Positions 1,181-24,629 of a DNA stretch of 33,525 nucleotides are shown piece by piece. The stretch spans positions 1 to 33,525 of the forward strand of contig JACQER010000104.1 of NCBI GenBank assembly GCA_016200465.1, read 5' to 3'. A program made the position numbers and the translations under genes. The first letter of the stretch is position 1; each line of letters opens with the position of its first letter. The notes beneath the pieces are model-generated. The model made no database searches, was not told the origin of the DNA, and saw only the letters and a list, made by a program, of their open reading frames with translations. The stretch is from Gammaproteobacteria bacterium. Its GTDB lineage: Bacteria > Pseudomonadota > Gammaproteobacteria > Acidiferrobacterales > Sulfurifustaceae.

Positions 1181-1406
1181 AGAGTTTAGAGAGAATGCTC
1201 CACCGATATATCGGTTGAACAGGGTGGATGCAATGTGAATGGACCATGAGTATTCGGTTCTGCCTGATCGAATTCGCGGTGACGGATGAGTTGTCGCCGT
1301 GGCAATTGTTTTCCCGTGCAAAGGTCGTTCGCGCAAGCAATTTGCGCCGATGTGTTTGTCTCGAGCGGCGAACCGATATCGTGAAGACAGGCAGGGTAAT
1401 CGTGAC

Positions 1407-1922
1407 ATGATCAGGTTGCATACGGCATTCCGAAGGGGAATTTTTCCGCAGGCAGGATTCACGCTTGTCGAAATCGTCGTGGCGATTCTGTTGATCGGCA
1501 TCCTGGCGTATTCCATTATTCCGCGATACCAGAACCGGGGCGTCTTCGATGTCAACGCGCAGGCGGAGCAGCTGGCGAGCGACATCCGCTATACCCAGTC
1601 GCTGGCCATGACCAGCGGGCAGCGCAACCGCATCAATCTCGCTGCCGCCTCGTATCAGATCACTACCAGCGCTGGCGCGCCCTTGGCGCACCCGGCGACG
1701 GGTTCCACAGTCGCGATTTCGCTCATCAACGTTTCGCTCAGCGGCTACAATCCTCCACTCACCAACAACTACATCGCTTTCGATGGGAAAGGGATTCCCT
1801 ACACCGACGTAGTAGCCGGCACTCCGCTCGGTGCGAACGCCACCATCACGCTTAGTGCAACCGGTGCCTCATCGCGTCAGGTCGTGGTGTCGCCGCAGAC
1901 GGGCAGGGTCCTTGTCCAATGA
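1407..1922 (+). CDS. type IV pseudopilin, GspH/FimT/MshC-like (cassette 1)
   Basis: Predicted 171-residue minor pilin. The ATG at 1407 is chosen because it places a short basic leader (MIRLHTAFRRGIFPQA) before the prepilin peptidase site G-FTLVE, with a purine-rich stretch (GCAGGG) about 10 bases upstream. The frame is open to 1299 but the added residues look non-coding. After cleavage the mature protein would begin FTLVEIVVAILLIGILAYSI, the hydrophobic stem helix of type IV pilins, followed by a GspH-like segment (LASDIRYTQSLAMTSGQRNR) and a beta-rich body ending VVVSPQTGRVLVQ. It most resembles MshC. It overlaps the next gene by 4 bases (ATGA), so the two are probably translationally coupled. 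Likely role: minor or initiating subunit of an MSHA-type pilus. Confidence 0.8.
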   Translation: MIRLHTAFRRGIFPQAGFTLVEIVVAILLIGILAYSIIPRYQNRGVFDVNAQAEQLASDIRYTQSLAMTSGQRNRINLAAASYQITTSAGAPLAHPATGSTVAISLINVSLSGYNPPLTNNYIAFDGKGIPYTDVVAGTPLGANATITLSATGASSRQVVVSPQTGRVLVQ

Positions 1923-2344
1923 AAACGTATTTTCATGTTCGCGGCGTGACGCTGGTCGAACTGATCGCGTTCATTATTATCGTGGGTGTTCTGGTTTCCG
2001 GCGTAATCGGCGGTGTCAGCACCACGATGCGCGGCAGCGCTACTCCCAAGCAGATCACGCAGGCCTTGCAATACGCCCAGGAACGCATGGAACTGATCCG
2101 GGCACAGAAAGACCGTCTGGGTTTCGCCGGTTTCACGGCCGCGACCTTTGATCCCTGCCTGACCGGTTCCACGCATCCTGCCTGCAGCTCCACGCCCGGA
2201 TATAACGTAGCCGTTCCGCCGCTGGATGTGACCGGCGCCTGCATGGGTAACGACGCGAATTACAAGTGCATCACGGTGACCGTGACCGACGCCACCACGG
2301 GTGCGCAACTCGCGCAACTGATCTCCGCCGTGGCGAATTACTGA
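1919..2344 (+). CDS. type IV minor pilin, MshD/PilV-like (cassette 1)
   Basis: 141 residues with a very short leader (MKTYFHVRG) and the cleavage motif G-VTLVE, then a hydrophobic helix (LIAFIIIVGVLVSGVIGGV). The following ITQALQYAQERMELIRAQK region is typical of MshD/PilV-type minor pilins. Four cysteines lie in the globular half (near residues 78, 88, 105 and 115), plausibly forming disulfides in the periplasm. The start overlaps the upstream stop as ATGA. The second cassette has a counterpart at 6712-7188. Minor-pilin assignment is firm; the exact Msh letter rests on gene order. Confidence 0.8.
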   Translation: MKTYFHVRGVTLVELIAFIIIVGVLVSGVIGGVSTTMRGSATPKQITQALQYAQERMELIRAQKDRLGFAGFTAATFDPCLTGSTHPACSSTPGYNVAVPPLDVTGACMGNDANYKCITVTVTDATTGAQLAQLISAVANY

Positions 2345-2345
2345 C

Positions 2346-2927
2346 ATGTTTTTTCATACCGACATTTCTCGCAACGCGGCTGGCACCGGTGCGGCGTCAC
2401 CACGGCCCGTGATCCGGAACGCGGGGTTCACGCTGGTCGAGTTTATCGTGGTCATCATCCTGGTGGGGATCATATTCGGCTTCGGGAGCACGCTGATCGG
2501 CAGGGTTTTCAGTTCCTATGCCTTGAAGCAGGACACCACCGACGCCGACTGGCAGGCCAAGGTCGCGCTGGAGCGCATGGCGCGCGAGTTGCGCATGGCG
2601 CGCACCGCCTCGGCGGCCGATCTCGACATCGCTTCGTTGACGCAGATCCGGTTCGTGGACACGGATGGCAACGGCGTCTGTTTTTATCGGAACGCGGCGG
2701 CCAACCGCCTGATGCGCAGTGCCGACGGCCCCGCGACCGCGTGCGGCACGACCGGTCCGCAGGTGCTGGCGGACAACATCACCGCGCTCGGATTCAGCTA
2801 CTGGAACAATGCCGGCACGAACACGGCGGCGGTGGCCAGCGTTTATTACATCACCGTGTCCGTGACCGTGGCGGAAGGAGCCTACAACAACGCCTTCCGC
2901 ACCAACTTGCGGCCGAGGAATTTCTGA
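2346..2927 (+). CDS. type IV minor pilin, MshO/PulJ-like (cassette 1)
   Basis: 193 residues. A leader of about 27 residues ends at the prepilin peptidase site G-FTLVE (RNAGFTLVEF), followed by the stem helix IVVIILVGIIFGFGSTLIG. The segment WQAKVALERMARELRMARTA is the GspJ/MshO hallmark, in which a long helix carries LxRMxRELR. A beta-rich C-terminal half contains two cysteines. It starts one base after the preceding stop and its own stop overlaps the next start. It is shorter than the mshO copy in cassette 2 (7188-8154) and lacks that copy's GE-VRLLYQVHV ending, so the two have diverged considerably. Confidence 0.78.
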   Translation: MFFHTDISRNAAGTGAASPRPVIRNAGFTLVEFIVVIILVGIIFGFGSTLIGRVFSSYALKQDTTDADWQAKVALERMARELRMARTASAADLDIASLTQIRFVDTDGNGVCFYRNAAANRLMRSADGPATACGTTGPQVLADNITALGFSYWNNAGTNTAAVASVYYITVSVTVAEGAYNNAFRTNLRPRNF

Positions 2928-4189
2928 TGTCTTTCCCGACGAATAATTTTTCGAGGCAACGGACTCTTGCGCCGCGGTTGATCGGCAGGCAGCGCGGTTT
3001 CCTGCTGTTGACCGCGGTGGTGCTGATCGTCGTGGTGGCGCTCATCCTGAGCGTGATGGTGTACCTGTCCGCGGCTTCCACCCGCTCTTCGGGAAAATTT
3101 CTCGCCGCCCAGCAGGCGCTTTTCATCGCCGGCAGCGGCCTGGAGCGCGGCACCCGTTTTCTGGTTTCGCCGGTGCTTGCCGAGCGATTGACCTGCGCCG
3201 CCGTCACCGGAAACGCGAACCTCACCAACGTCGCTTTCGCGCAGGGGCAATTCACGGTCAACGCCGGCAACGCCGGGACATCATATTATCCCGTGACCAC
3301 CCTGCGCTTGGCTCTCGGCAGTGCCGACAACACTGTGCCGGTGAACAGCCTCGCCGGGTTCGCGCCGGCCTGGCGCGTGCTGATCGACCGCGAGGCGATC
3401 GACTACAGCAAAACCGAGCCGGCCAATGACACGATCTGTGGTGGAGCTGGCCGCGCGCCGTGCCTGGTGGGTGCGCAACGGGGCCGCGACGGCAGCGTGG
3501 CGGTGGCGCATGTCACCGGTGCGCCGGTGGGACAGTATCAGTGCGATTTGCGGTCCCAAGGTGGAGTCCCCGACCTGGCCAATGCCCGCGGCAAACGCCT
3601 GGTGCAAAAAAGCGTGCAGTTGCAGGAAGGCTGGGCCGTGGGGGCCAACGGCGTTCTTTTCCGCTGGAATGATACGACGTGGCTGAATGCAGCCTCGCCG
3701 CTCGCGACGCAGCTGAACAGCGTTTCCATGCTTTCCTATGCCGATGGATGGGCCGTCGGCAACCAGTCCGGCGGTGAAGTGATCCTGCGCTGGACCGGCG
3801 GACCCAACTGGACGCGCGTCGGTCCGACCGGGCCGATTCCGAACACCAACCTGAACAGCGTCTATTGCGTCGCCAGCAACGATTGCTGGATCGTCGGCAA
3901 CCAGTCCGGCGGTGAAGTGATCCTGCGCTGGAATGGCGCGGCGTGGAACCAGGTGGGTCCCTCGACGGCCATACCCAATGTCAGCCTGCGCAGCGTCTAT
4001 TGCACCAAGTCCGATGATTGCTGGATCGTGGGCGACCAGTCCGGCGGTGAATTGCTGTTGCACTGGGATGGCACCGCCTGGGCCCGCCTGCCGGCCTCGG
4101 GCGCACTTCCGAACCAGAATCTCCGCGGCATCTGCATCGTCGGATCACGCCAGCGCCCGCAGGCGGCATGGCGCGAAGTTTTCCAGTGA
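2927..4189 (+). CDS. large PilX/MshP-like pilin with C-terminal Trp-rich propeller-like repeats
   Basis: 420 residues from the ATG at 2927, which overlaps the previous stop. The N-terminus has a basic leader ending QRG-FLLLTAVVLIVVVALILSVMVYL, a PilX/MshP-style stem in which Phe follows the cleavage Gly and no Glu is present at +5. Residues about 130-215 form a module with IDREAIDYSKT, CGGAGRAPC and QYQC that recurs in the next gene. From about residue 235 come repeats of the form W-x-VG-NQSGGEVILRW-G-x-W, about 45-46 residues apart, three of which are closely similar. They resemble bladed, kelch/YCF48-like beta-propeller repeats. The protein ends AAWREVFQ. Most minor pilins are 150-200 residues, so this looks like a pilin stem fused to a binding or adhesive head. 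The ligand is unknown. Confidence 0.7.
   Translation: MSFPTNNFSRQRTLAPRLIGRQRGFLLLTAVVLIVVVALILSVMVYLSAASTRSSGKFLAAQQALFIAGSGLERGTRFLVSPVLAERLTCAAVTGNANLTNVAFAQGQFTVNAGNAGTSYYPVTTLRLALGSADNTVPVNSLAGFAPAWRVLIDREAIDYSKTEPANDTICGGAGRAPCLVGAQRGRDGSVAVAHVTGAPVGQYQCDLRSQGGVPDLANARGKRLVQKSVQLQEGWAVGANGVLFRWNDTTWLNAASPLATQLNSVSMLSYADGWAVGNQSGGEVILRWTGGPNWTRVGPTGPIPNTNLNSVYCVASNDCWIVGNQSGGEVILRWNGAAWNQVGPSTAIPNVSLRSVYCTKSDDCWIVGDQSGGELLLHWDGTAWARLPASGALPNQNLRGICIVGSRQRPQAAWREVFQ
3754..4060 (+). repeat. in-gene direct repeats encoding Trp-rich propeller-like units
   Basis: A 41-base segment (3754-3794) recurs exactly at 3892-3932, 138 bases later. A third, diverged copy begins at about 4027, 135 bases after the second. 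All are in frame and encode the VGNQSGGEVILRW unit (VGDQSGGELLLHW in the third). The multiples of three and the conserved peptide show these are protein repeats. The exact 41-base identity points to recent duplication or gene conversion. Confidence 0.85.
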
Positions 4190-4197
4190 AGCGTTTC

Positions 4198-6111
4198 GTG
4201 TCCCACATGAATTCCATTTCCCGGCAACGCGGTTTTCTGCTGGTGACCGCGGTGGTGCTGATCATCATCGTTAGCTTGATTCTGACCGTTATGGTGTTCC
4301 TGGGCGCGACCGGAACCGATTCCAGCGTCGTGCATTCGCAGTCCGGGCAGGCGCTGTTTGCCGCGGAATCAGGCATGGAGCGGGCATTACGGGGTTTTTC
4401 CAAAGAGGGCACTGCCTGCGCGAACCTCACTTATAACAGTACCCTCTCCGCGGGCGCGACGACGGTGGCGTTTGCGACGGCCGGTACCGTGAATGCCCCG
4501 GCGAGCACAACGTTGTCCGCGAATATCAACGCGACCACGGCGATTATTCCGGCGACCAGTATCACTGGCTACGCTTCGCATGGCCGCATAACGATTGACG
4601 CCGAGAGAATCCAATACCAGGGTACATCCACCAGTGCTGTGGTCTGCGGTACTGCCCCGTGCTTCACCGGTACTGTTCGCGGTGTCGCGGGCACGCCCGC
4701 CGCCAGCCACAACATTAACGCTGTCATCAGGCAAAATCAGTGCGTGATCCGGGCCACCGGAACCAGCGGCAACACCACGCGCGCGATCGAGCGCGCGACG
4801 ACGATCTCGGATGGTACGGACGCGATGATGGCGTACGCCAAAGACTCACCCGCGGCTTCGGTCGGAATCCCGTTCTTCCGGATATGGGACAACACCACCT
4901 CGAGCTGGAGCGCGGAACAGTCCGCCACCAGCGTTGGCGCTGGCCGAATCATCCAATACGTGGTGCTGAAGTCCGCGCGTACGCGCAACGAGGTGATTTT
5001 AGGCACCCAGGACAGCACGGGCGATATTCGGGTGCAGGTATGGAATGGGACGGTATGGAGCGCGACGTCGTTCGTGGCAAATGTTGGTTCAGATACCACC
5101 TATCGGGGGTTTGACATTGAATACGAAACGAACGGAGACAGAGCCGTCCTTGTCTACAACAACGGCGCGAACAGCAATCTGAACTACTGGATCTGGAACG
5201 GCTCGGCCTGGTCCGCCCAGCCCAGTGTCGCCATGCCTATCGTCGGCAGACCGCGCTGGGTCGAACTCGCGCCGCATCCCGATCCGGCGAGCAATGAGAT
5301 TGTCATGCTGGTTCTCAGCAGTTCGTCCGAGATTTATGGCATGCGCTGGGGCGGCAGCGCATGGAGCAACATGGGCATTGCTCTTTCCTGGGATGTAGCG
5401 GTGATCACGTCCCGCAAGATCATTGATGTCGCCTATGAACAGCAATCCGGACGCGCGATGTTCGTGTGGGGCACGGCCGCCGCCGCGGGGTTTAAGTACC
5501 GGTTTTGGAATGGGGCGGCATTGACGGCTACCCAGAATTTTATATTTACGTCTTCAGTGCTCGCCGGTACGTCAAATTGGGTGCGGGTGGCGCCGAATTT
5601 GTTCTCCAACGAGATCATGTACGGGGTGCAGGATTCCGCGCGCGATCTTCATACGGCATATTGGAATGGCGCCAGTTGGATCGAAGGCCCCCGCCATGAC
5701 AGTAACGTCGAAAACGCGGCGAGCCGAAATTTCGATCTGGTATTCGATACGAACCCCGCCAGAGCAGGGGACGCCTGGCTCGTTTGGGGGTCACGTATCA
5801 GTACCGATTTCGCGCGCCGCCGGCAATGGACCGGCGGTGCCTGGAGCGGCACGATCACCAACTTCGCCGACGACGTTGCGCTGACACAACTGGCGGCTCA
5901 TCCCAATTCGGGATGGCTGTTTGCCGGTCTTTATGGGGATTCCACAGGCACCGCACGCAATTTGGTCGAGTATCATTACAATGGCGGTGCTTGGACTCAG
6001 ACGTCTATTTGGGGCGGTCCGGTAATAGCGGACCCCGTCCAGGAGCGGGTTTACCTCTCCCCGACACGTTTCGGGCTGGGTATCTATGATTGGGTGGAGA
6101 TTTTTCCATAA
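4198..6111 (+). CDS. very large PilX/MshP-like pilin with W-N-G-x-W repeat head
   Basis: About 637 residues. The GTG at 4198 is preferred because GAAG lies 6 bases upstream and it gives a short leader (SHMNSISRQRG). An ATG at 4168, overlapping the previous gene by 22 bases, and an ATG at 4207 are alternatives. The stem G-FLLVTAVVLIIIVSLILTVMVFLG is nearly the same as in the preceding gene. Residues about 120-190 repeat its module (ITIDAERIQYQGTS, CGTAPC, IRQNQC). The rest contains many W-N-G-x-x-W-like units (VWNGTVWS, IWNGSAWS, RWGGSAWS, YWNGASWI, QWTGGAWS, HYNGGAWT), consistent with a beta-propeller or similar bladed head. It ends YDWVEIFP, matching the AAWREVFQ end of its neighbour. Probably a tip or surface adhesin of the pilus; substrate unknown. 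Confidence 0.7.
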   Translation: MSHMNSISRQRGFLLVTAVVLIIIVSLILTVMVFLGATGTDSSVVHSQSGQALFAAESGMERALRGFSKEGTACANLTYNSTLSAGATTVAFATAGTVNAPASTTLSANINATTAIIPATSITGYASHGRITIDAERIQYQGTSTSAVVCGTAPCFTGTVRGVAGTPAASHNINAVIRQNQCVIRATGTSGNTTRAIERATTISDGTDAMMAYAKDSPAASVGIPFFRIWDNTTSSWSAEQSATSVGAGRIIQYVVLKSARTRNEVILGTQDSTGDIRVQVWNGTVWSATSFVANVGSDTTYRGFDIEYETNGDRAVLVYNNGANSNLNYWIWNGSAWSAQPSVAMPIVGRPRWVELAPHPDPASNEIVMLVLSSSSEIYGMRWGGSAWSNMGIALSWDVAVITSRKIIDVAYEQQSGRAMFVWGTAAAAGFKYRFWNGAALTATQNFIFTSSVLAGTSNWVRVAPNLFSNEIMYGVQDSARDLHTAYWNGASWIEGPRHDSNVENAASRNFDLVFDTNPARAGDAWLVWGSRISTDFARRRQWTGGAWSGTITNFADDVALTQLAAHPNSGWLFAGLYGDSTGTARNLVEYHYNGGAWTQTSIWGGPVIADPVQERVYLSPTRFGLGIYDWVEIFP

Positions 6112-6184: not shown

Positions 6185-6715
6185 ATGCGGACTCTTTCGC
6201 CAATATCAGTCAAGTTCACAGAGCATGGGACCCGCGGTTTGACCTCGGTTATCACCGGCTGCACCAAAGGCTTCACCCTCGTCGAGATGATCGTGACGCT
6301 GATCATCATCGCGTTGATCGCGGCGGTGAGCGGCCCGCTTTTTTTCAACATCAACACCTTCCGCGAGAGCGGGTTTTACGACGAAACGCTCTCCGCGATT
6401 CGCTACGCGCAGAAATACGCGGTGGCGAGCGGCTGCACCGTGCGCGTGCAGACCACCGCGACCGGGTTCACGCTCTACCGGCCCGCCGCTGTCGGCAACT
6501 GCAATACGCCGGGCTCCTATACGACGCCACTGACTGACCCTTCCGGCAACGCCACGACATTCACGCGCACCGCCCCGGACGGCGTGGCGCTTTCGGTGGC
6601 GGATTTCACTTTCACCGCCAGCGGCACCGCTTCGGTCTCGCCCTCGATCGCCATCACCGTCGGCAGCCGGCAGTTGACCGTCATCGGCGAGACCGGCTTC
6701 GTGCAGGCGCAATGA
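6185..6715 (+). CDS. mshC: type IV pseudopilin MshC-like (cassette 2)
   Basis: 176 residues; AAGGA lies about 10 bases before the ATG. A 28-residue leader precedes KG-FTLVEMIVTLIIIALIAAV, a standard prepilin peptidase site and stem helix. ETLSAIRYAQKYAVASGCTV is the GspH/FimT/MshC segment, and the protein ends with RQLTVIGETGFVQAQ, like the end of the cassette 1 homologue. Two cysteines (in SGCTV and GNCNT) are spaced for a disulfide. It overlaps the next gene by 4 bases. The order C-D-O-P-Q from here matches the classical MSHA minor-pilin block, which supports the symbol. Confidence 0.82.
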   Translation: MRTLSPISVKFTEHGTRGLTSVITGCTKGFTLVEMIVTLIIIALIAAVSGPLFFNINTFRESGFYDETLSAIRYAQKYAVASGCTVRVQTTATGFTLYRPAAVGNCNTPGSYTTPLTDPSGNATTFTRTAPDGVALSVADFTFTASGTASVSPSIAITVGSRQLTVIGETGFVQAQ

Positions 6716-7188
6716 AGCTCATGCCATTCCGCTCCCGTTTGCGCGGCGTCACCCTGGTGGAGCTGATCGTCTCCATCGTGGTGATCGGCACGGCGCTGGC
6801 GGGCATATTGGTGGTCATCGTGCGCAATGTCAGCGCCAGCGCCGATCCCCTCATCTGGCATCAGGCCGTAATCGTCGCCGAAGCCTATCTCGAGGAGGCG
6901 ATGACCAAGCAGTTCACCGACCCGAATCCTCCCGAAGGCGGTGAGACGCGCGCGACCTACGACGACGTTCTGGATTACAACAACATCGTTGCCGAATCCC
7001 CGCCGCGCGACCAGAACGGCAGCCCCATCGCGGCGCTGGCGGGTTACTCGGTGAACGTGCAGGTGACCACCGAGGCGTTGAACGACATTACTCTCGCCAG
7101 CGGCAATGCCGTGCGCATCCAGGTGACGGTCACGACACCCACCGGTGGCAGCGTCGTCGTCAGCGGCTATCGGACGAATTACAACTGA
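6712..7188 (+). CDS. mshD: type IV minor pilin MshD-like (cassette 2)
   Basis: 158 residues with leader MKLMPFRSRLRG before VTLVELIVSIVVIGTALAG, then the WHQAVIVAEAYLEEAM segment characteristic of MshD/PilV-type minor pilins (AxAYLEE). No cysteines. The ATG overlaps the mshC stop (ATGA), and its own TGA overlaps the mshO start by one base. This tight packing indicates one transcription unit. The paralogue at 1919-2344 shares the stem but little of the globular part. Confidence 0.8.
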   Translation: MKLMPFRSRLRGVTLVELIVSIVVIGTALAGILVVIVRNVSASADPLIWHQAVIVAEAYLEEAMTKQFTDPNPPEGGETRATYDDVLDYNNIVAESPPRDQNGSPIAALAGYSVNVQVTTEALNDITLASGNAVRIQVTVTTPTGGSVVVSGYRTNYN

Positions 7189-8154
7189 TGCGCGGATTCG
7201 ATAACCTCTCGAATGCAAGTTGCGTGCGTCGCAGCCGCGGCGTGAGCATGATCGAGCTCATCATCGTCATTACCATCAGCGGGATCATCGCCACGATCCT
7301 GGGGGTCGTCCTGGTGCGGCCGATTCAAGGTTACGAAGCGCAGGTACGCCGCGCGCAACTGGTCGACGCCGCGGAAATGGCGGTGCGCCGCCTGGGACGG
7401 GACATCCGCCAGGCATTGCCCAACAGCGTGCGCGTGCGCGACGCCCTCGGCAACACGAACAACGTGAACTGCTCGGCCACGGGCGCGGTCTGCACGATCG
7501 AGATGCTCAACACTCTGGACGGCGCGCGTTATCGGGAGGGACCGGGCAATATCGGTCACGACCATGGACCGACGCAGTACCGGCTGAAGGTTCCCGGAAA
7601 CGATAATAACGGTTTCAATATCGTCGGAGAGTTCCAGAATTTCCGACCCACGTTGCCATTTACTTCGACTTCGGAGCGCCTCGCGATCTATAACCAATCG
7701 GCCACCGGCGCCACCAGCGCCTATGCCGACGCGACGCTCGCGGCGGGCCCGTATGTGATCACCAATCCCAATGCACCGGCGAACACGAAGTTCATGTTGC
7801 AAGACGACGGCGGTGGAGATGAATGGCGGATCACGCCGTCCGGCAACCCCAATTTCAATTTCCGCTGGGCTTCGCCCAATCAGCGAATTTTCATCGTCGA
7901 CACGCCGGTGAGCTATGGCGAACGGCAACATCACGCGTTACTGGAATTATTCCATTACCGCCGCCCAACAGAGCGCGCCGGCCGGCGGCACCAGCGCCTT
8001 GCTCTCAACGCCGGTCACGGCCTGCAGCTTCAGCTACTCGCCGGGCACGAACCAGCGCGCCGGGCTCGTGACGCTCGACATTACCATCGCCGATGACGCC
8101 AGCGGCGAGCAGGTCCGGTTGCTGTACCAGGTGCACGTGGATAATTCCCCATGA
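7188..8154 (+). pseudogene. mshO: mshO-like minor pilin interrupted by a frameshift near 7917
   Basis: Frame 1 starts at the ATG at 7188 with leader ...RRSRG and stem VSMIELIIVITISGIIATIL. It continues through the MshO helix (AEMAVRRLGRDIRQALPNSV) to FIVDTPVSY at about 7916, and then turns into Arg/His-rich sequence with no pilin character, stopping at 8096. The expected continuation, ANGNITRYWNYSITAAQ ... RAGLVTLDI ... GEQVRLLYQVHV, is found in the +1 frame from about 7918 to the TGA at 8154, which overlaps mshP as ATGA. One extra base (or loss of two or five) near AGCTATGGCGAAC explains this. It may be a true mutation or a sequencing error. If restored, the protein would be about 321 residues, close to usual MshO length. 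Confidence 0.8.
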
Positions 8155-8603
8155 CGCGTCATGCCTCCATCCGTGGAAAACACGAGCGGGGTTTCGCCCT
8201 GGTCGCGGCCATTTTCATCGTCGTGGTGCTGGCGATGCTCGGGATCATGATGGTCACGATCGGCGGCATGCAGCGCGCCACCGCGAGCGTGGCGGTGCAG
8301 GGCGCGCGCGCGTTCTACGCCGCGCGCTCCGGAATCGAATGGGGGACTTTCGGGGCACTCAACAACACCGTGGCCACGTGCGGCAACGCCGCCTCCACGC
8401 CGACAACGAATACTTTCGCCCTGACGGTGTCCGGCCTTAACGGATTTACCGTGTCCGTGGTTTGCAGCTATACCACGCACCGCGAGCGCAACGATACTTA
8501 CAATGTGTATGTGATCAACTCCACGGCAACCTCGGGCAGTTTCGGGGACGCTGATTATGTTTCGCGCACCCTTCAGGTCACCGTGACCAATGCCCAACCC
8601 TAA
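8151..8603 (+). CDS. mshP: MSHA biogenesis protein MshP (PilX-like pilin)
   Basis: 150 residues; leader MTRHASIRGKHERG followed by FALVAAIFIVVVLAMLGIMMV, then GARAFYAARSGIEWG, the 'A-x-x-AARSGIEWG' signature of MshP/PilX-type pilins. A short beta-rich body has two cysteines (ATCGN, VVCSY) and ends RTLQVTVTNAQP. It overlaps the mshO stop by 4 bases. Compared with the two giant PilX/MshP-like pilins of cassette 1, this copy has the normal family length and no repeat head. Confidence 0.85.
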   Translation: MTRHASIRGKHERGFALVAAIFIVVVLAMLGIMMVTIGGMQRATASVAVQGARAFYAARSGIEWGTFGALNNTVATCGNAASTPTTNTFALTVSGLNGFTVSVVCSYTTHRERNDTYNVYVINSTATSGSFGDADYVSRTLQVTVTNAQP

Positions 8604-8726
8604 AACGTGCTGCATTGACCGCGTTTCACCGTTGTTCGCCGCTTTTTGGGCTATCCTTGAAAGAGGGGCCGTGCACTGCCGCCCGACTTGGGCCGTACAT
8701 CAGGTTCTGCATTTGATCGCATCAAC

Positions 8727-11700
8727 ATGACCAGTATGCTTTCAACGGGCGTTGAATCTGTATCCCGCATGGCAAGGATTATCAGCCCGGTTCTGGTCCT
8801 GCTGTTGGCGACAGTTTTGACGGTCGCACCATCCGAGGCGGCCGTGACTTTCCGCTCCGCTGCCTCCGCCAGTTCGGCATCCTCCACGCCCACGCGTTTC
8901 TATATGCAGAACGCGGCGCCGGACGTCACCGTGGCGACCCACCGCGGTGCCTGGGACGTCACGGGTTCGGTGCTGCAACGCAAGCTGGCGCGCACCAAGT
9001 CGGGCGCCATTGCCACCAAGGCCGTCGCCGAGGCCTCGGCTACCAACAACTACGACGTGCTCATGCTCAAGTTTGTGAGCGAGCCGATCACTGCCGCGCA
9101 GACGATCACGGGTACGCTCAACTGGATCGTGGGTGATCAGGAGTCGAGCAACAACATGAACGCCAATTGGCACGTCCATGCCTATGTCACGCAGGGCGAT
9201 ACCGATAACCTGCGCGGCACGCTGATCACCGACTATACCGAGGCCGCCGGCACCAACGAGTGGCCCACCACCGCGGTAGGCGATACCCCGAACGGTGCCG
9301 CTGCCGTTGCGCTTTCTTCGGTCGCTGTGTCCGCCAACGATCGCATCGTCATCGAGGCCGGTTACGTGGCCCGCAACAGCGTGACCACGAACTATACCGG
9401 CACCTTGTGGTACGGAGGCACCAGTGCGACCGATCTCACCGCGGGCGGGGATGAAACCAGCTTTCCGGGCTGGTGGGAGTTCAGCCAGGATCTGTTCAGC
9501 GTCAGCGCTCTCACCATTCCCAAGCCCGCCGGCACCCTCACGGCGGACGTGATGATCGCCTCGATCAGCGTCACGCCGAGCACGATTACCATCACGCCGC
9601 CCGTGGGTTGGACTTTGATCTCGACGGTGACCCAGAGCAGCGCCACCACGAGCAAGCTCGTCACCTATTACCGTGTCGCCGGTGTGGGCGAACCGGCCAG
9701 CTATTCCTGGGGTTTCTCCGGCGGGACACACAACGGCGCCGTCGGCGGCATCGCCAGTTTCAGCGGTGTGGACAATCTGGCGCCGATCGACGCGCAGGCG
9801 GGCACTCCCACGGTCAGCGCCACCAGCCATACCGCACCGAGCGTCACGACCACGCAATCCAACGGCATGCTGGTGACGGTTCACGAATACGCCAGCTCCG
9901 GGACATGGACGCAGCCCGGGACGATGACCGAGGCTCTGGATGTGGCTTCACTGACACCGAACAACGCCAGCGGCATCTCGATGGAAATGAATTACGAAAC
10001 CCGTCCCACGGCCGGCGCCACCGGAACACGTCAGGCCAACGCCAGTACCACCGCCGACAGCGGTGCGACTCAATCGGTGGCGCTGAAGGCCGCGCCCCTG
10101 GTCTGCTACACCGACAACTTCAACCGCGCCAACGGTTCGCCCGGCAGCGACTGGGTCGTTTCCAGCACCAGCGGAGGATTCGGCAATCCGGTCATCGTCA
10201 ACAATCGTTTGCGCCTGACGGATGCGACCGGCAACGTCGCGACCATGGCGACCCTGCAGCGCCTGTTCCCGGGATCGGGCAACCGCATCGAGGTGGATTT
10301 CGATCACTTTGCTTATGGCTTCTCTGGTTGCGCGGCTGACGGCATCGCCGTCACGCTTTCGGACAGCGCGGTCACGCCGGTTCCCGGCGGCTATGGCGGC
10401 TCCCTGGGCTACGCCCAGCGCACGGGCATCAATGGCTTTGCCGGCGGCTGGCTCGGGATCGGAATCGACGAGTACGGAAATTTCTCCAACCCCACCGAAG
10501 GGCGCTCGGGCGGCCCCGGGTTCCGGGTCGATTCCGTCGCGGTGCGTGGTTCCGGCTCCGGCACCACCGGCTATGCCTATCATGCCGGTACCAACACCCT
10601 GACCCCGCAAGTGGACAACAACGGCGCGGCCGTCCCGCCGCATCACTACCGCATCATCGTCGACCATTCCAATGGCGTGAACGCGATGGTGTCGGTCGAA
10701 CGTGATACCGGCGCCGGCTATGTCACGCTCGTGGCGCCCTACGATGCCAAGGCCCAGGCGGGCCAAGCCGCGGTGCCGACCGGCTGGCTGCTGTCCTACA
10801 CCGGCTCCACCGGTGGCTGCAACAACATTCATGAAATCGATAGTCTGCAAGTCTGCGCGACGTCGCAGACGTCGATGACCGGGATTCATCATTTCGACAT
10901 TACTGTCGGGCCCTCGGCGAGCACCTGTTCGCCACAAAGCGTCACGATAGTGGCCCGGGACATATCGAACAATATATTGACCGGCTACACCGGCACCGTC
11001 CAGATCACCACCTCCACCTCACATGGCGACTGGTCGAAAGTAAGCGCCGGTGGCACGCTCACGAACGGCACGGCGGACGACGGCGTCGCGACCTACACCT
11101 TTGTTGCCGGTGACAACGGGATTATCACGCTCGGGTTCACTAATACCCACGCGGACGATCTCACGTTCAACGTCACGGATGTCGCCGTGCCGAGCTCGAG
11201 CACGACGTCTTCGGTGACCACCAGCTTTCGTGATAGCGCCTTTGTCATTACGCCGGATACGATTCAGATCGCCGGGCGCAATCAGAACATGACGGTGGCT
11301 CTCTACACCAAGGTCGGTGGCAGTTGTACCCCCGACACCAACTATACCGGCGCCCGGACTCTGGACGCTTGGCTCACGCTCGATCCGAGCCATCCCGCCG
11401 GCGCCACCGTGCCCACGATCGGTGCCCTGACCCTGCCGACCTCAGCGCCGGCCTCGAACCCGGCGTCGAACAACCTCACGCTGACTTTCACTGCGGGTGT
11501 TGCGAGCTTCGCTTTGGCCACCACCGACGTCGGCCGGTACGTTCTCAATATGCGCGACGATACGCGCACCTACGCCACGGCGGTGGACCTCGGCGGCGCC
11601 AGCAGCAGCATCACCACGCGCCCGTGGTTGCATGTCGCGGTCAGCGGCAATCCCGGCGCCAGTGCTGCTACGGGCACGGTCTTCACCTCGGCCGGCACCG

Positions 11701-12968
11701 ATTTCAGCGCCACCGTGCGCGGCGTGTTGTGGCAGGCCGCCGACGACGCGAACAATGATGGCATTCCCGACAGCGGCGCGAACCTCGTCGACAATACCGC
11801 GGCGCCGCGATTCGCCTGGGATACTGTTCTTTCACCCACGATACCGTTTACACCCGCCACTCCCTCCGACGCGCCGGCAGGTACCGGAACGGCCGGCACG
11901 CTGACTCGCGGATCCGGGGGCAGTACGGTCACGCAGGCGAGTTTCAGCAGCGGTTCCGCGACCGTCACGGACTGGCGTTACAGTGAGGTCGGCAGCTTCA
12001 CCCTGCGCGCCACGGCGAGCAACTATCTCAACAGCGGAATCAACGTGGCGACTGACAACGGCGTGGTCGGCCGCTTCACGCCGGCCTATTTCGACGTCGC
12101 CCGCATCCACGGCTGCCCCGTGGGCGCGGACCCCCTGTTGTTTACCTATTCCGGTCAGCCGTTTACCGTTACCGCCACCGCGCGCGCCGCGAACAGCGGT
12201 GCGGTGACCTTGAACTACGACGGCACGCTCGGCTTTGCCAAGGCCACGACCATTTCGGATGCCGGCAACGCCGCTAATTTCACGAACAACGTTCTCGCGG
12301 CCGCCAATTTTTCAGCCGGTACCCGGACCCAGAGCACCGTGACTTACACCTTCCCCGCCAAGGAGACCGCGCCGGCCACGCTGACGCTGCGCGCCGTTGA
12401 CACGGACAGCGTCAGTTCGGCCGGTCACACCGAAGAGCAAACGCAAATACGCAGCGGGCGCGTGCATATTTACAACGCCTACGGCTCCGAACTCGTGGAC
12501 CTGCTGGTATCGACGCGAGTGGAGTATTACGAAGACACGACCGTCACCGCGCCCGCAACTATTCCTCCCATCACCGGCTGGATCGCGAATGGTGGCGACA
12601 GCTGCAGCAGCGTGGGTCTGAGCGCCCTCAGTAATTTCCAGGGAAATCTCGCATCGGGAGAAACCTGCGTGCAGGACACCGGCAGTCCCGGTGTCAGCGG
12701 TCAAGGCTGCGCCGCCGCCGGACCGCTGGCACCGGTGAACGAACGTTACCTCGCCTTGCCTTCAGCGGGCGATTACAACCTTTACCTGAAAGCACCGGGT
12801 GCCACCAACGATGGCAGTGTGGACGTGACCGCCAACCTGGCCACGAAAACATGGTTGCGCTACGACTGGAACGGGACGGGCTCAGACGTTGACCCGACGG
12901 GCCAGGCCACTTTCGGTCTTTATCGCGGCAGCCCGAAGCATATCTACCTGCGCCAACGCTACAACTGA
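8727..12968 (+). CDS. mshQ: MshQ-like giant surface protein with ConA/LamG-like domain and DUF6701
   Basis: About 1413 residues. The start is uncertain: the ATG at 8727 is chosen, the ATG at 8769 would begin right at the signal peptide (MARIISPVLVLLLATVLTVAPSEA), and no good Shine-Dalgarno sequence precedes either. After signal cleavage (about residue 38) there is a beta-rich region of unknown family (40-260), a segment with PKPAGTLTADVMIASISV (260-455) and a concanavalin/LamG-like jelly roll starting DNFNRANGSPGSDW (about 459-710). Ig-like regions follow (HHFDITVGPSASTCSPQSV onward, 720-1110). The C-terminal DUF6701 (about 1115-1413) runs from YFDVARIHGCP to FGLYRGSPKHIYLRQRYN, the signature end of MshQ. 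It is secreted and likely displayed with the MSHA-type pilus; carbohydrate binding is an inference from the jelly roll. Confidence 0.8.
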   Translation: MTSMLSTGVESVSRMARIISPVLVLLLATVLTVAPSEAAVTFRSAASASSASSTPTRFYMQNAAPDVTVATHRGAWDVTGSVLQRKLARTKSGAIATKAVAEASATNNYDVLMLKFVSEPITAAQTITGTLNWIVGDQESSNNMNANWHVHAYVTQGDTDNLRGTLITDYTEAAGTNEWPTTAVGDTPNGAAAVALSSVAVSANDRIVIEAGYVARNSVTTNYTGTLWYGGTSATDLTAGGDETSFPGWWEFSQDLFSVSALTIPKPAGTLTADVMIASISVTPSTITITPPVGWTLISTVTQSSATTSKLVTYYRVAGVGEPASYSWGFSGGTHNGAVGGIASFSGVDNLAPIDAQAGTPTVSATSHTAPSVTTTQSNGMLVTVHEYASSGTWTQPGTMTEALDVASLTPNNASGISMEMNYETRPTAGATGTRQANASTTADSGATQSVALKAAPLVCYTDNFNRANGSPGSDWVVSSTSGGFGNPVIVNNRLRLTDATGNVATMATLQRLFPGSGNRIEVDFDHFAYGFSGCAADGIAVTLSDSAVTPVPGGYGGSLGYAQRTGINGFAGGWLGIGIDEYGNFSNPTEGRSGGPGFRVDSVAVRGSGSGTTGYAYHAGTNTLTPQVDNNGAAVPPHHYRIIVDHSNGVNAMVSVERDTGAGYVTLVAPYDAKAQAGQAAVPTGWLLSYTGSTGGCNNIHEIDSLQVCATSQTSMTGIHHFDITVGPSASTCSPQSVTIVARDISNNILTGYTGTVQITTSTSHGDWSKVSAGGTLTNGTADDGVATYTFVAGDNGIITLGFTNTHADDLTFNVTDVAVPSSSTTSSVTTSFRDSAFVITPDTIQIAGRNQNMTVALYTKVGGSCTPDTNYTGARTLDAWLTLDPSHPAGATVPTIGALTLPTSAPASNPASNNLTLTFTAGVASFALATTDVGRYVLNMRDDTRTYATAVDLGGASSSITTRPWLHVAVSGNPGASAATGTVFTSAGTDFSATVRGVLWQAADDANNDGIPDSGANLVDNTAAPRFAWDTVLSPTIPFTPATPSDAPAGTGTAGTLTRGSGGSTVTQASFSSGSATVTDWRYSEVGSFTLRATASNYLNSGINVATDNGVVGRFTPAYFDVARIHGCPVGADPLLFTYSGQPFTVTATARAANSGAVTLNYDGTLGFAKATTISDAGNAANFTNNVLAAANFSAGTRTQSTVTYTFPAKETAPATLTLRAVDTDSVSSAGHTEEQTQIRSGRVHIYNAYGSELVDLLVSTRVEYYEDTTVTAPATIPPITGWIANGGDSCSSVGLSALSNFQGNLASGETCVQDTGSPGVSGQGCAAAGPLAPVNERYLALPSAGDYNLYLKAPGATNDGSVDVTANLATKTWLRYDWNGTGSDVDPTGQATFGLYRGSPKHIYLRQRYN

Positions 12969-15440: not shown

Positions 15441-15883
15441 AATTCGCTCTTGGCACGAAACTTGATACAAATGGCTACAGGAAAGCCGGCCCATGGTTAA
15501 TGGCCGGTCGGGCCGCGGTGATGCTGGCCTGTGTGGCGGGGCATGTTGCCGCAAGCCAGGCGAACGATTCGCTGGCCGGACTCGCGGACCCGACGCAACC
15601 AGCGTACAGCGGTGCAACGGGCGGAGCTGTAGCGCAAAAACCGGCGGGCCCGATGCTGCAATCGACTTTTATCTCGACGAGCCAGCGTCGCGCCGTGATC
15701 AGCGGCAAGACCTATGCAATCGGCGATAAATTTGGCGGCGCCGTGATAACGGAAATTCAACCGTATGAAGTGGTGATGAAGCGGGCAGACAAGGAATCGC
15801 ACCTGCGTTTATTGCCGAAATTGGCGAAGGAAACCCTGTTCGTGAAAGTTCCGGCGAAAAGCCAAGAAGGCGGGCAAAGATGA
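15437..15883 (+). CDS. mshK: MSHA biogenesis protein MshK (PilP/GspC-like)
   Basis: 148 residues from the ATG at 15437, which has AGGGGTGGA 7 bases upstream and overlaps mshJ as ATGA; a GTG at 15425 is less likely. A signal or anchor segment (LMAGRAAVMLACVAGHVAAS) is followed by LADPTQPAY, the DPT(R/Q)P motif of MshK, and a small beta domain (RRAVISGKTYAIGDKFGG / VITEIQPYEVVMKR) like the GspC/PilP homology region. It should sit in the periplasm and connect the inner-membrane complex to the secretin encoded next. It overlaps mshL by 4 bases. Confidence 0.82.
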   Translation: MKFALGTKLDTNGYRKAGPWLMAGRAAVMLACVAGHVAASQANDSLAGLADPTQPAYSGATGGAVAQKPAGPMLQSTFISTSQRRAVISGKTYAIGDKFGGAVITEIQPYEVVMKRADKESHLRLLPKLAKETLFVKVPAKSQEGGQR

Positions 15884-17574
15884 GATGGACACATAACATC
15901 GGAACGACGACCCGGCGCATGCTGACAGCAGCGCTGGCCATGTTGTTGGCGGGATGTCAGAGTGTTTCTCCCGGCTGGCGCGACTCTGTGATCGCCAGCG
16001 TGGACGACAGCCTGTCGCAGGTACGCGTCGACAAGAGCGGCAAAGCGGTTCCGGCGGACGTAAGCCGCGCGTTGTTGCCGCCGATTGAAATCAATCTTCC
16101 GCAGGGCGGAGCGGTTCCGCTCGAACCGCGCTTCGACCTCACCGTGCACAACGCGCCGGCACGCCAGGTGTTCATGGGACTGGTGGAGGGCACGCCATAC
16201 AGCATGATTCTGCCCCAGGATGTGCACGGCACGATTTCGCTGAACCTGAAGGAAGTGAGCGTGCCCGAAGCGCTGAGTGCCATCCGCGATGTCTATGGCT
16301 ATGAGTACCGTCGCGAGGGTAACCGCTTTTTCATCCTCGGTAACGACATGCAGACGCGGATGTTCCCGGTGAACTATCTCAATCTTTCGCGCAAGGGGCT
16401 TTCCGACACCCGGGTGTCGGCGAGCGGTCTGAGCGCGACCGGCGGCACGGCGGGCAGCACGGGTTCGACGAGCTCGGTGTCGTCAAGCAGCGGTGTGCAG
16501 ATTCAGACGCAGACACAGGCGGATTTCTGGAAAGATTTGAGCACGGCGCTGATGGCCATTGTCGGTTCCGAGGGGGGAAGGAAGGTGATCGTGAATCCCC
16601 AAGCGGGAATCGTCGTGGTGCGGGCCATGCCGGATGAGCTGCGTCTGGTCCAGGACTATCTGGGCGTGACCCAGACGAGCATGAACCGCCAGGTGATCCT
16701 CGAAGCCAAGATCGTGGAAGTGCAGCTCAAGGACGGGTTTCAGAGCGGCATCAACTGGGCGGGCATCGCGTCGTCCGCGGGCCGCACTTATACCGTCGGC
16801 CAGGTCGGCGGCGGCAAGTCGCTCAGCACCACAGGATTGAGCGAGATCGCCGGCAACACCGGTAACCTCAATCCGACCACGGGCACGTTCAGCGCGATCT
16901 CCGGAACCAACAGTTCTGCCTTCGGCGGCGTGTTCACGCTGGCGGTGAAATCGCAGAATTTCGCTGCGTTTTTTGAGCTGCTCAAGACGCAGGGCGATTT
17001 GAATGTTCTTTCCAGCCCGCGCGTTTCCACCATGAACAACCAGAAAGCGGTGATCAAGGTCGGCACCGATTCCTATTTCGTGACCAAGCAGGACACGACG
17101 GCCAGCACGGTCGCGGGCGGGTCGCCCACGGTATCGACCGATCTGTCGCCGTTCTTTTCCGGCATCGCTCTGGACGTGACGCCGCAAATCGACGAGGCCG
17201 GCAACATCAATCTGCATATCCATCCCTCGGTGAGCGAGGTGTCGGAGAAGCTGATCACCGTGGCGTCGAACCAGACCATCTCTACGGCGCTCAGCTCGGT
17301 ACAGGAATCGGACAACATCGTGCGCGCCACCAGCGGCCAGATCATCGTGATCGGCGGCCTGATGAAGGAGGCGAGCACGGACGATAACGCTTCGGTGCCG
17401 ATCCTGGGAGACATCCCGCTGGTGGGCAACCTCTTCAAGCACAAGAAAGTGACGCGCATCAAACGGGAACTGGTGATCCTGCTCAAGCCGACCAGCATCA
17501 ATAACGGTCAGGACTGGAGCGACGCGGCCGGCGAGTCGCAGGAGCGCATCCGCAAAATTCGCGTCGGTTCCTGA
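15880..17574 (+). CDS. mshL: MSHA secretin MshL
   Basis: 564-residue outer-membrane secretin through which the pilus passes. A lipoprotein signal ends LLAGC, with the lipidated Cys at residue 26. An N-terminal STN-type domain spans about residues 85-150 (VFMGLVEGTPYSMILP ... VPEALSAIRDVYGYEY), followed by FPVNYLNLSRKG and a Ser/Thr/Gly-rich linker (about 180-207). The secretin N1-like and pore domains cover about 215-550, with LEAKIVEVQLKDGFQSGINW, VLSSPRVSTMNNQKAVIKVG and the closing VPILGDIPLVGNLFKHK ... ELVILLKPTSI. Length and motif order are normal for MshL/PilQ-type secretins. Four-base overlap with mshK. Confidence 0.92.
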   Translation: MRWTHNIGTTTRRMLTAALAMLLAGCQSVSPGWRDSVIASVDDSLSQVRVDKSGKAVPADVSRALLPPIEINLPQGGAVPLEPRFDLTVHNAPARQVFMGLVEGTPYSMILPQDVHGTISLNLKEVSVPEALSAIRDVYGYEYRREGNRFFILGNDMQTRMFPVNYLNLSRKGLSDTRVSASGLSATGGTAGSTGSTSSVSSSSGVQIQTQTQADFWKDLSTALMAIVGSEGGRKVIVNPQAGIVVVRAMPDELRLVQDYLGVTQTSMNRQVILEAKIVEVQLKDGFQSGINWAGIASSAGRTYTVGQVGGGKSLSTTGLSEIAGNTGNLNPTTGTFSAISGTNSSAFGGVFTLAVKSQNFAAFFELLKTQGDLNVLSSPRVSTMNNQKAVIKVGTDSYFVTKQDTTASTVAGGSPTVSTDLSPFFSGIALDVTPQIDEAGNINLHIHPSVSEVSEKLITVASNQTISTALSSVQESDNIVRATSGQIIVIGGLMKEASTDDNASVPILGDIPLVGNLFKHKKVTRIKRELVILLKPTSINNGQDWSDAAGESQERIRKIRVGS

Positions 17575-20806: not shown

Positions 20807-20890
20807 GAGCGCAGCGAGCAGGGCTGGCGTCAATACGGTAAGACGAGTGAGCGTAACGAGCAAGGCTACAGTTAATACCTCAGACGAGTT
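20807..20890 (+). repeat. tandem 42-bp direct repeat in the bioF leader
   Basis: Two imperfect copies of 42 bases (20807-20848 and 20849-20890). Each begins GAGCG-A-CGAGCA-GGCT, continues GT-AATAC, and ends with AGACGAGT. The first 30 positions agree at 23 sites. An inverted third copy lies at 19995-20024. The stretch keeps an open frame toward bioF but the encoded residues do not look like BioF. Confidence 0.65.
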
Positions 20891-20954
20891 TGTCCTATTC
20901 ACGTCCACATCTGAACTCCATGCTTCGTCACCGATCCCCGCGTCACGCGTTTTC

Positions 20955-22106
20955 ATGAAGATACTCGAACAGGAGCTGGCGCGGCGCCGCGCGCAGCATT
21001 TGTATCGCGAACGCCTCGTGCTCGATTCGGCGCCAGGCGTCGAAGTCCGTGTCGATGGAGAAACGCTGCTGTCGTTCTGCAGCAATGATTATCTGGGTCT
21101 GGCGAATCACCCGGACGTCGTTGCCGCGTTCCGCGCCGGCGCCGAGCGCTACGGCGTGGGCGCCGGGGCGTCGCATCTCGTGAGCGGTCACAGCCGCGCT
21201 CATCATGTCCTGGAAGAGGAATTGGCCGACTTCGTCGGCGCTGAGCGCGCGCTGCTGTTCTCCACCGGCTACATGGCGAATCTCGGCGTGGCCAGCGCGC
21301 TCATGGAACGGCACGATGTCATTTTCGAGGACCGCCTCAATCATGCCTCGCTGATCGACGCCGCGCGTCTGACCCGGGCCAAAGTCAGCCGCTATCCCCA
21401 TGCTGATACCGCGCGGCTCGCGGAAATGCTCGCATGTACTCAAAAACTTGGCATGATCATGACCGACGCTGTTTTCAGCATGGACGGGGACATGGCTCCG
21501 TTGGCTGAACTGGTCTGCCTGGCCTCGAAACACGGCATGCGGCTGCTGGCCGACGACGCCCACGGCATCGGCGTGCTGGGAAAAAACGGGCGGGGATCAT
21601 TCGAGCACCTGGGAATGACGCCGGCCCCGCCGACGATACTCATGGCCACTCTGGGCAAGGCGTTCGGCGTTTTCGGCGCCTTCGTGGCCGGCGAAGCGGC
21701 GTTGATCGAGACCCTGATCCAGCGGGCGCGTACTTATATATATACCACCGCCTTGCCCCCGGCCGTGGCCGAGGCCACCCGCGCCAGTCTCCGGATCGTG
21801 CGCGCCGAGAGCTGGCGGCGCGAGCGCCTGCGCGCACTGGTGGCAAGGTTCCGCGCCGGGGCGGAGAAACTCGGCCTGGTCCTGATGGATTCAGCGACGC
21901 CGATTCAGCCGGTGATTTTCGGTGCATCGGAAAAAGCGCTGGAAGCCAGCCGCCGGCTGCGCGAACACGGCATCCTGGTGCCCGCGATCCGTCCGCCCAC
22001 GGTGCCGGAAGGTTCGGCGCGCCTGCGCGTCACTTTTTCCGCGGTGCATCAGGAGGCGCAGGTGGACCGGCTGCTCGAGGCGCTGGCCACGGCGAAAACG
22101 GCATGA
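20955..22106 (+). CDS. bioF: 8-amino-7-oxononanoate synthase BioF
   Basis: 383 residues from the ATG at 20955; MKILEQELARRRAQHLYR is the normal BioF N-terminus, whereas the open frame to 20847 adds non-conserved residues. A strong Shine-Dalgarno sequence is not visible. BioF is a PLP enzyme that condenses pimeloyl-ACP with alanine to give KAPA (8-amino-7-oxononanoate) in biotin synthesis, in the cytoplasm. Seen motifs: SNDYLGLANHP, GAGASHLVSGHSRAHHVLEE, VFSMDGDMAPL, DDAHGIGVLG, and the Schiff-base lysine K235 in ATLGKAFG. It is first of four overlapping bio genes; bioB, often directly upstream, is not present. Confidence 0.95.
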   Translation: MKILEQELARRRAQHLYRERLVLDSAPGVEVRVDGETLLSFCSNDYLGLANHPDVVAAFRAGAERYGVGAGASHLVSGHSRAHHVLEEELADFVGAERALLFSTGYMANLGVASALMERHDVIFEDRLNHASLIDAARLTRAKVSRYPHADTARLAEMLACTQKLGMIMTDAVFSMDGDMAPLAELVCLASKHGMRLLADDAHGIGVLGKNGRGSFEHLGMTPAPPTILMATLGKAFGVFGAFVAGEAALIETLIQRARTYIYTTALPPAVAEATRASLRIVRAESWRRERLRALVARFRAGAEKLGLVLMDSATPIQPVIFGASEKALEASRRLREHGILVPAIRPPTVPEGSARLRVTFSAVHQEAQVDRLLEALATAKTA

Positions 22107-23738: not shown

Positions 23739-23748
23739 ACGGCGGCTG

Positions 23749-23829
23749 GCCCCGTACCTCGGTCGCTTTGTCAGGGCGCGAGATTCGGACAAGGGAGAAG
23801 ACAATATGATGCAATCCGAGGTACGGGGC
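23749..23829. repeat. perfect 14-bp inverted repeat enclosing the bioD ribosome binding site and start
   Basis: GCCCCGTACCTCGG (23749-23762) is the exact reverse complement of CCGAGGTACGGGGC (23816-23829). The 53-base loop contains the AGGGAG ribosome binding site (23792-23797) and both candidate ATG codons (23806, 23809). The right arm is inside the first codons of bioD. In RNA the arms would form a very stable stem at the base of the initiation region. Confidence 0.7.
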
Positions 23830-24522: not shown

Positions 24523-24620
24523 CTGACTGAATCGGTCGGTTGAGTCGTGGCGGGCGCTGCTGAATCGCCTGAAAAACACCTGTTTTTTGCTTGATTCACG
24601 TATTGCGGCGATTTGACGCA

Positions 24621-24629
24621 TGTGATAAT
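24621..24629 (+). promoter_or_regulatory. extended -10 promoter candidate for the oxidase cluster
   Basis: TGTGATAAT is TGn followed by GATAAT (5/6 to TATAAT). No good -35 is present (TATTGC at 24601-24606, 17 bases upstream). Predicted start of transcription is near 24636, about 13 bases before the FNR-like box. Confidence 0.4.

Follow-up and report, generated by a model that had tools for sequence, protein, structure and literature searches.

Two adjacent modular minor pilins of an MSHA-type pilus locus share a C-terminal motif that may complete the pilin fold in cis or in trans

Results

Organization of the pilus locus

The window (the whole stretch of DNA analysed, 33,525 nucleotides) holds an MSHA-type pilus locus of an Acidiferrobacterales MAG in which two PilX/GspK-like minor pilins, P0001 and P0002, are encoded next to each other (Table 1). 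They are the last proteins of a FimT-PilV-PilW-type minor pilin cassette with three minor pilins upstream, and the start codon of P0001 overlaps the stop codon of the preceding minor pilin gene (TGATG). An MshL secretin gene and PilM- and PilN-like genes are located downstream of the pair in the same type IV pilus locus.

Table 1 Features of the pilus locus and of the modular pilins P0001 and P0002.
Feature	Position	Strand	Evidence or remark
Upstream minor pilins, cassette of P0001/P0002	1299-2927	+	N_methyl and GspH matches (Pfam)
GspH/FimT-like minor pilin	1299-1922	+	
PilV/MshD-like minor pilin	1919-2344	+	
PilW/MshO-like minor pilin	2346-2927	+	
P0001, modular PilX/GspK-like minor pilin, 420 aa	2927-4189	+	ORF (start ATG 2927), translation, homologues
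P0001 stem (GFLLLTAVVLI..), residues 24-79	2996-3163	+	hydrophobic helix, position 5 not Glu
P0001 beta module (four conserved Cys, final pilin strands preceding the head)	3164-3625	+	conserved in nine proteins
P0001 head, four W-rich blades	3626-4117	+	blades at residues 234-259, 263-303, 309-347 and 354-391
P0001 segment NLRGICIVG, additional blade strand 1 following the final blade	4118-4144	+	
P0001 C-terminal tail AWREVFQ	4166-4186	+	alignments A1 and A5 show invariant W415 and E417
P0002, second modular PilX-like minor pilin, 634 aa	4207-6111	+	ORF (start ATG 4207)
P0002 head, about 7-8 W-bounded repeats of ~52 aa	4822-6066	+	low-confidence model, pLDDT 49
P0002 C-terminal tail DWVEIFP	6088-6108	+	sequence
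Tail-less MshP/PilX-like pilin, second cassette	8151-8603	+	PilX_N E=0.0032; end RTLQVTVTNAQP
MshQ-like non-pilin protein	8688-12968	+	Pfam DUF6701 E=1.4e-81, residues 837-1422; C-terminus IYLRQRYN

Pilin stem and cysteine-containing module

A class III signal and a hydrophobic N-terminal helix without Glu5 are present (QRGFLLLTAVVLIVVV..), and the AlphaFold2 model of P0001 places a helix at residues 17-79. P0001 and P0002 stayed below the cut-off of the Pfam family PilX_N (10.9 and 15.1 bits vs. 25.5 bits), which was passed by the close relatives L058 (25.8 bits) and L089 (26.2 bits); in addition, P0001 gave a weak match to GspK (E 0.006). The stems of the two proteins had been described in the initial annotation as nearly identical (GFLLLTAVVLI and GFLLVTAVVLI); they are similar, but with 57% identity over 56 aa they fall short of near-identity, and the full-length proteins are ~30% identical. 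The common Cys-containing module was recovered in an alignment of nine proteins, in which C90, C171, C179 and C206 are invariant. The end of this module in P0001 holds the final pilin strands that precede the head (QYQC..RLVQKSVQLQ, residues 203-232; the model shows strands at 206-213 and 223-230).

Heads with propeller-type repeats

The W-bounded repeats noted in both proteins are real but of two different kinds. P0001 has four units of ~45 aa each, which scored 21-52 bits with a blade model, whereas the ~52 aa units of P0002 are weaker (at most 8.5 bits). In P0001, repeated four-stranded blades are present according to model strands and blade-model matches, the Pfam Rax2 propeller was matched slightly under the cut-off (E=4.6e-6; in the relative L059 it is above the cut-off) and a fold search with the head model retrieved GH74, YCF48 and lectin propellers. 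The head model of P0002, although of low confidence, also matched propellers in the PDB (AAL, 7.7e-7; PHL, 9.8e-7; sortilin). The two head models thus match solved propellers, and the proposal of a bladed fold was not refuted. A PDB sequence search with P0001 returned designed Trp-rich beta-trefoils (E 1.8e-4); this similarity was attributed to repeat composition and a beta-trefoil was rejected, since fold matches and blade counts favour propellers. Both proteins join a pilin stem to a module that is unspecific to pilus biology, as modular pilins do.

Ten further proteins have stem, module, repeats and tail together, which bears out the expectation that homologues with stem plus repeats exist; their sources are Acidiferrobacterales and other Gammaproteobacteria as well as a Myxococcales bin, and no relatives were found in the viral contigs searched. 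Seven relatives have exactly 7 blades (six counted by the blade model, the seventh, L265, by eye from sequence), two have 14 (G013 with 14 model matches, G005 with 13 model matches and 14 by eye) and one has 12. Counts of 7 or 14 are as expected of closed propellers. Since P0001 has 4 blades, compared to 7 or 14 in most relatives, it falls short of the number for a closed ring, and a closed propeller is not demonstrated for it. An assembly collapse as cause of the low number is conceivable but not obvious, because blades 2-4 share 70-83% identity in the first 60 bases of each. Blade 1 of P0001 begins at strand 2 (EGWAVG) and the absent strand 1 comes after the last blade, as is also seen in the relatives; judged from the sequence, this NLRGICIVG segment is likely the velcro closure of the head.

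A common C-terminal tail

As proposed before, P0001 and P0002 end in a common W-x-E-hydrophobic-aromatic motif (AAWREVFQ and YDWVEIFP). Related loci contributed 370 distinct ORFs with a length of 200 aa or more; 40 of them have W-x-[EQ] in their last 10 residues, and 36 of these 40 are PilX-type, PilY1 or TailSec proteins. Internal 10-mers contain it with a frequency of 0.7%, so only 2-3 ORF ends would be expected and the tail is not a product of chance. A strict DNA pattern (WRE-hydrophobic-[FY]-[PQ]-stop) gave, over 369 genomes of the class, a total near the background of the reversed pattern, and its matches that could be assigned to an ORF lay at gene ends only in the window and in G004. 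W-x-[DEQ] ends are also found on PilY1 proteins and on non-pilin secreted proteins. In most of a class-wide sample, which was picked partly by ORF length, the PilY1 C-terminus is GRQSWRQL-like; four PilY1 proteins in the census described below have a W at the C-terminus but do not fit the strict motif. The C-terminus of DUF6701/MshQ is related but only loosely similar (YLRERY). The solved structure of GspK (3CI0) has FSVLWHQ as last residues, which align with LxWQE of other GspK proteins.

The tail directly follows the head, and a C-terminal closing strand is frequent in propellers; the tail could therefore serve to close or cap the propeller instead of the pilin. We regard this as very unlikely: a likely closing strand (DLNGIxLxG) is already present ahead of the tail, tails of the P0001 type are also located behind unrelated heads (L065, L066, L068), and the tail is found on LamG-like heads and even on headless pilins of ~150 aa which end in TAWAQQ.

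Fused and split forms

Five tail-less PilX proteins belong to the same family as P0001 and P0002. They end where the head would start, precisely at the end of the pre-head segment of the beta module of P0001, and the next gene in each case encodes a secreted non-pilin protein (TailSec); these partners end in WREVFQ, WREQYQ, WREEFR, WREVFQ and WREIFQ. The stem of P0002 is nearest to two such split forms, the tail-less PilX of G001 (70%) and G004 (62%), which are from the same genus. A TailSec profile search of the 369 class genomes gave matches in one genome only, and the PilY1/PilC domain PF05567 was matched neither in P0001 and P0002 nor in the genome of the window.

In a census of 75 PilX loci, 38 of 39 tailed pilins had no tailed gene directly downstream, the next gene being unrelated or encoding a further pilin, whereas 31 of 36 tail-less PilX were followed by a tailed non-pilin protein, a class which owes much to the canonical PilX-then-PilY1 gene order; for one MshP, DUF6701 is located further downstream. 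The association was significant by Fisher's test (p = 9e-15), with the reservation that the sequences are not independent, the loci being phylogenetically correlated, and that one locus (L069) was corrected by hand.

Two other readings of the tail were considered. It could be a C-terminal recognition signal, e.g. for a periplasmic chaperone, the secretin or an export step, on all tip-bound proteins, and indeed an identical short motif ends both pilins and Sec-exported non-pilin proteins with unrelated folds. Such a signal would be expected on a tail-less PilX and its partner alike, but the census shows a complementary distribution; moreover, GspK, a membrane-inserted pseudopilin, bears the motif in its last residues inside the folded domain of the solved structure. 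Hence, we consider a recognition signal unlikely. Ordinary divergence is the other reading: the ends of PilX, GspK and PilY1 would be aromatic by happenstance, and the proteins plain modular pilins without any cis/trans relation. Modular pilins are widespread (PMC8179133) and family-specific conserved ends are conceivable, but no domain is recognised as common to TailSec, DUF6701 and PilY1, and yet these proteins coincide in ends such as WREVFQ, YWREKF and SWRELF, and the most similar stems occur in split and fused forms within one genus. This makes ordinary divergence very unlikely.

Discussion

Given the observed architecture, the motif with its distribution and the complementary gene content, we consider it probable that P0001 and P0002 sit at the tip of an MSHA-type type IV pilus as pilins with a built-in adhesin, and that their tail is the last pilin strand. 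The hydrophobic stem would anchor the proteins at the pilus tip, the head would probably bind glycans or surfaces, and the W-x-E-hydrophobic-aromatic tail would fold back to the pilin domain as last beta-strand, thereby complementing it in cis. In the split relatives, the strand that completes a tail-less PilX would be supplied in trans, from the C-terminus of a secreted tip protein encoded separately (PilY1, MshQ/DUF6701 or TailSec); the separation of head and tail from the pilin in these relatives suggests that the tail locks the adhesin onto the pilus tip. That the last residues close the pilin fold after the inserted head had been proposed in the initial annotation. Cis/trans complementarity, the split orthologues and the alignment with solved GspK support this proposal well; the structural models do not, since the tail of P0001 was not placed (pLDDT about 30) and the whole model of P0002 is unreliable (pLDDT 49). 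Overall, the earlier interpretation is partly supported, with heads that match propellers and homologues that exist, and the architecture is less unusual than was assumed, as modular pilins occur commonly (PMC8179133) and in ComZ the head precedes the last strand (PMC6561018).

Beta-strand addition between PilX and PilY1 is already known as a prediction from published models for Myxococcus xanthus and Neisseria (PMC11046646, PMC13190605), and a 2026 preprint by Ellison on strand complementation is cited in PMC13190605. As in that tip complex, where the C-terminal strand of the adhesin is predicted to complete the PilX sheet, the PilX gene is found immediately before PilY1, and PilY1 ends in W-x-[EQ] in our sample; unlike there, P0001 and P0002 have stem, head and strand on one polypeptide, and their heads are not PilY1. 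ComZ of Thermus thermophilus, compared here by architecture, is a GspK-like tip pilin whose head sits ahead of the final pilin strand, as is proposed for P0001 and P0002, but this head is a DNA-binding beta-solenoid (PMC6561018). The pseudopilin GspK/XcpX of type II secretion (3CI0, 5VTM), which P0001 resembles by its weak profile match and terminal residues, is a tip pilin with a domain inserted into the sheet; unlike the heads described here, this domain is alpha-helical and lies between strands 3 and 4 (PMC6561018). PilB and PilC of Streptococcus sanguinis also combine a minor pilin with an adhesive module shown at the tip; their modules are of the vWA or lectin type, that of PilB is grafted via a short loop, and the available portions of the two papers describe no common C-terminal strand motif (PMC8179133, PMC9934059). 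The YCF48, GH74, AAL and PHL/PLL propellers, the top structural matches of the head models, are without pilin attachment and only 10-22% identical, and P0001 has merely four blades.

In the literature searched, the exchange between cis and trans, the motif common to these proteins and the TailSec partner all appear to be new, and no paper on DUF6701 was found. We lean slightly towards the broader view that type IV filament tips use a W-x-[DEQ] C-terminal strand as a general connector: any adhesin with such an end could complete a PilX-type pilin, in cis if fused to it or in trans if separate, so that pilin and adhesin could be fused or split freely in evolution. If this is true, DUF6701/MshQ and TailSec would act in MSHA-type pili as tip adhesins that complement the pilin in trans, like PilY1. 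Current research asks how adhesins are retained at type IV filament tips and what completes the tip pilin before it is assembled. A strand that is naturally swapped between one chain, as here, and two, as in relatives of the same genus, would be evolutionary evidence for strand complementation, the W-x-E-type tail would offer a short sequence test for tip proteins, and DUF6701 would gain a proposed role.

Two adjacent pilins with repeat heads

The source of the contig is a metagenome-assembled genome (homologues named Sulfuricaulis and Acidiferrobacterales belong to its genus and family); the contig, 33.5 kb, is complete in the window and carries an MSHA-type pilus locus (Table). P0001, a PilX/GspK-like minor pilin, and its neighbour P0002 were found as the initial annotation had described them, in their ORFs and translations. 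Over 56 residues their stems share 57% identity; after the predicted cleavage site they read FLLLT and FLLVT, without Glu5. Both stayed under the cut-off of Pfam PilX_N, close relatives were over it. Part of the module shared by both, residues 91-176 of P0002, matched phrog_7578 (E 5.8e-5), a phage family of unknown function, and the module may therefore be common to pilins and phage proteins. The MshO-like pilin of cassette 2 has an apparent frameshift near 7900, either a sequencing error or real: in the listed ORF the last part is Arg/His-rich nonsense, and a normal C-terminus (..TLDITIADDASGEQVRLLYQVHVDNSP) continues in another frame. Downstream of the pilus locus, matches to an aminotransferase, an alpha/beta hydrolase and a methyltransferase, which we read as a biotin-type set, precede a cytochrome c oxidase cluster.

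Features of the contig and TailSec genes of related loci
Feature	Locus	Position	Remark
Minor-pilin cassette 1	window	1299-6111	P0001 and P0002 at its end
P0001	window	2927-4189 (+)	420 aa
P0002	window	4207-6111 (+)	634 aa
phrog_7578 match	window	4480-4735	in P0002
Minor-pilin cassette 2	window	6185-8603	
MshO-like pilin	window	7188-8096	in cassette 2
DUF6701/MshQ-like protein	window	8688-12968	
MshL secretin	window	15880-17574	
PilM-like and PilN-like proteins	window		same pilus locus
Genes downstream of pilus locus	window	20847-31391	
COX2, COX1, CtaG, COX3, SURF1	window		within 20847-31391
TailSec	L065	7309-9060	
TailSec	L066	6981-8642	
TailSec	L094	4158-5900	
TailSec	L096	3879-5663	
TailSec	L097	8811-10553	

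The W-rich heads differ in type: P0001 has 4 WAVG-type blades, P0002 longer W-bounded repeats that were barely detected by a blade model made from relatives and used to count head units. This model found 7 units in each of six relatives (G040, G044, G046, G054, L089, L090), 14 in G013, 13 in G005 (14 by eye), 12 in G021 and 4 in P0001; L265, a relative from another family, has 7 blades by eye. One seven-bladed propeller would yield a count of 7, and two would yield 14. Blade 1 is without its first strand; this strand recurs once after the last blade, just ahead of the C-terminal tail, which from the sequence would be the usual velcro arrangement. The Rax2 C-terminal propeller of Pfam matched the relative L059 over cut-off and P0001 marginally. 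The AlphaFold2 model of P0001 (pLDDT 73.5) had GH74, YCF48 and lectin propellers as structural matches, and the best matches of the poor P0002 model (pLDDT 49) were nonetheless overwhelmingly propellers. Since P0001 has only 4 blades, its closed propeller form is uncertain.

A C-terminal tail proposed to work in cis or in trans

An alignment of nine proteins shows no variation at the W and E of the tail. Within the same genus and order, this ending also stands behind heads of a quite different kind (AWREDYQ, AWREVYQ, AWREVFP and AWREQVS in L065, L066, L068 and L145), and headless pilins of ~150 aa in genus g14 likewise carry it (TAWAQQ). In PilY1 clusters of g14 (L156, L157, L158), an ORF upstream of PilX, 418-449 aa long and probably PilW-like, also ends W-x-Q (DIWGQ, VIWDQ). 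GSWRDF or similar ends pilins of ~350-450 aa across many gammaproteobacterial families; a widespread group of such PilX_N proteins (L247-L272) is apparently self-complemented, and one genome, G090, has a GSWRDF-type PilX_N protein and a tail-less PilX with PilY1 ~6 kb apart. In a class-wide sample (L184-L243), PilY1 ends mostly GRQSWRQL[KR] and DUF6701 proteins end IYxRExY, YWREKF, YWREILQ and similar, with the signature (I)Y-x-R-E-x-[YW] or YWRE.

Five PilX of the P0001/P0002 family lack the tail and end exactly where the head would start. Directly after each lies a gene for a Sec-exported non-pilin protein of ~550-600 aa, termed TailSec, ending WREVFQ, WREQYQ, WREEFR, WREVFQ or WREIFQ. Two species of the genus to which the window belongs carry such pairs, as do an acidobacterium, a betaproteobacterium and Gallionella. 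TailSec is rare, occurs in Gamma-, Beta- and Acidobacteria bins, adjoins a tail-less PilX in 5/5 cases and had no clear match in Pfam (best NPCBM_assoc, under cut-off). The two stems closest to P0002 (70% and 62%) come from two of these split forms; thus, one genus has fused and split states with the closest stems.

The loci studied contain 370 distinct ORFs of 200 aa or longer; 40 of these end W-x-[EQ], and 36 of the 40 are PilX-type, PilY1 or TailSec (internal background 0.7%). When the census was widened to more PilX loci, no tailed gene lay directly downstream of 38 of 39 tailed pilins, the sole exception being P0001, followed by P0002, also a tailed pilin. A tailed PilY1, DUF6701 or TailSec directly followed 31 of 36 tail-less pilins; the exceptions were four PilY1 that have a C-terminal W yet lack the strict motif, and one MshP with its DUF6701 genes further downstream. 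L069 was corrected by hand because the script had chosen the wrong overlapping frame. The Fisher p of 9e-15 is a description and not a probability, since the sequences are related and the pilX-pilY1 gene order is already known.

The tail is best read as the last pilin strand. With a GspK profile, LxWQE close to the C-terminus of GspK proteins aligns with FSVLWHQ, which ends the solved GspK 3CI0, and published AlphaFold-Multimer models add the C-terminal strand of PilY1 to PilX (PMC11046646), extended to four complexes (PMC13190605). We infer this step, since in the AlphaFold2 model of P0001 the tail remained unplaced.

Modular pilins are already known, as are PilX-PilY1 strand addition and the insertion of a head ahead of the last strand. 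In the open-access library searched, preprints aside, we saw no account of PilX-like pilins with W-rich propeller heads, nor of TailSec, nor of a W-x-[DEQ] end common to cis-tailed pilins, PilY1 and TailSec; fused and split forms in one genus were likewise not described there. Among the structural neighbours of the heads are sugar-binding lectins and the assembly factor YCF48, which point to no single ligand; that a tip pilin bears so large a head implies that the head is displayed at the tip of the pilus and serves in binding.
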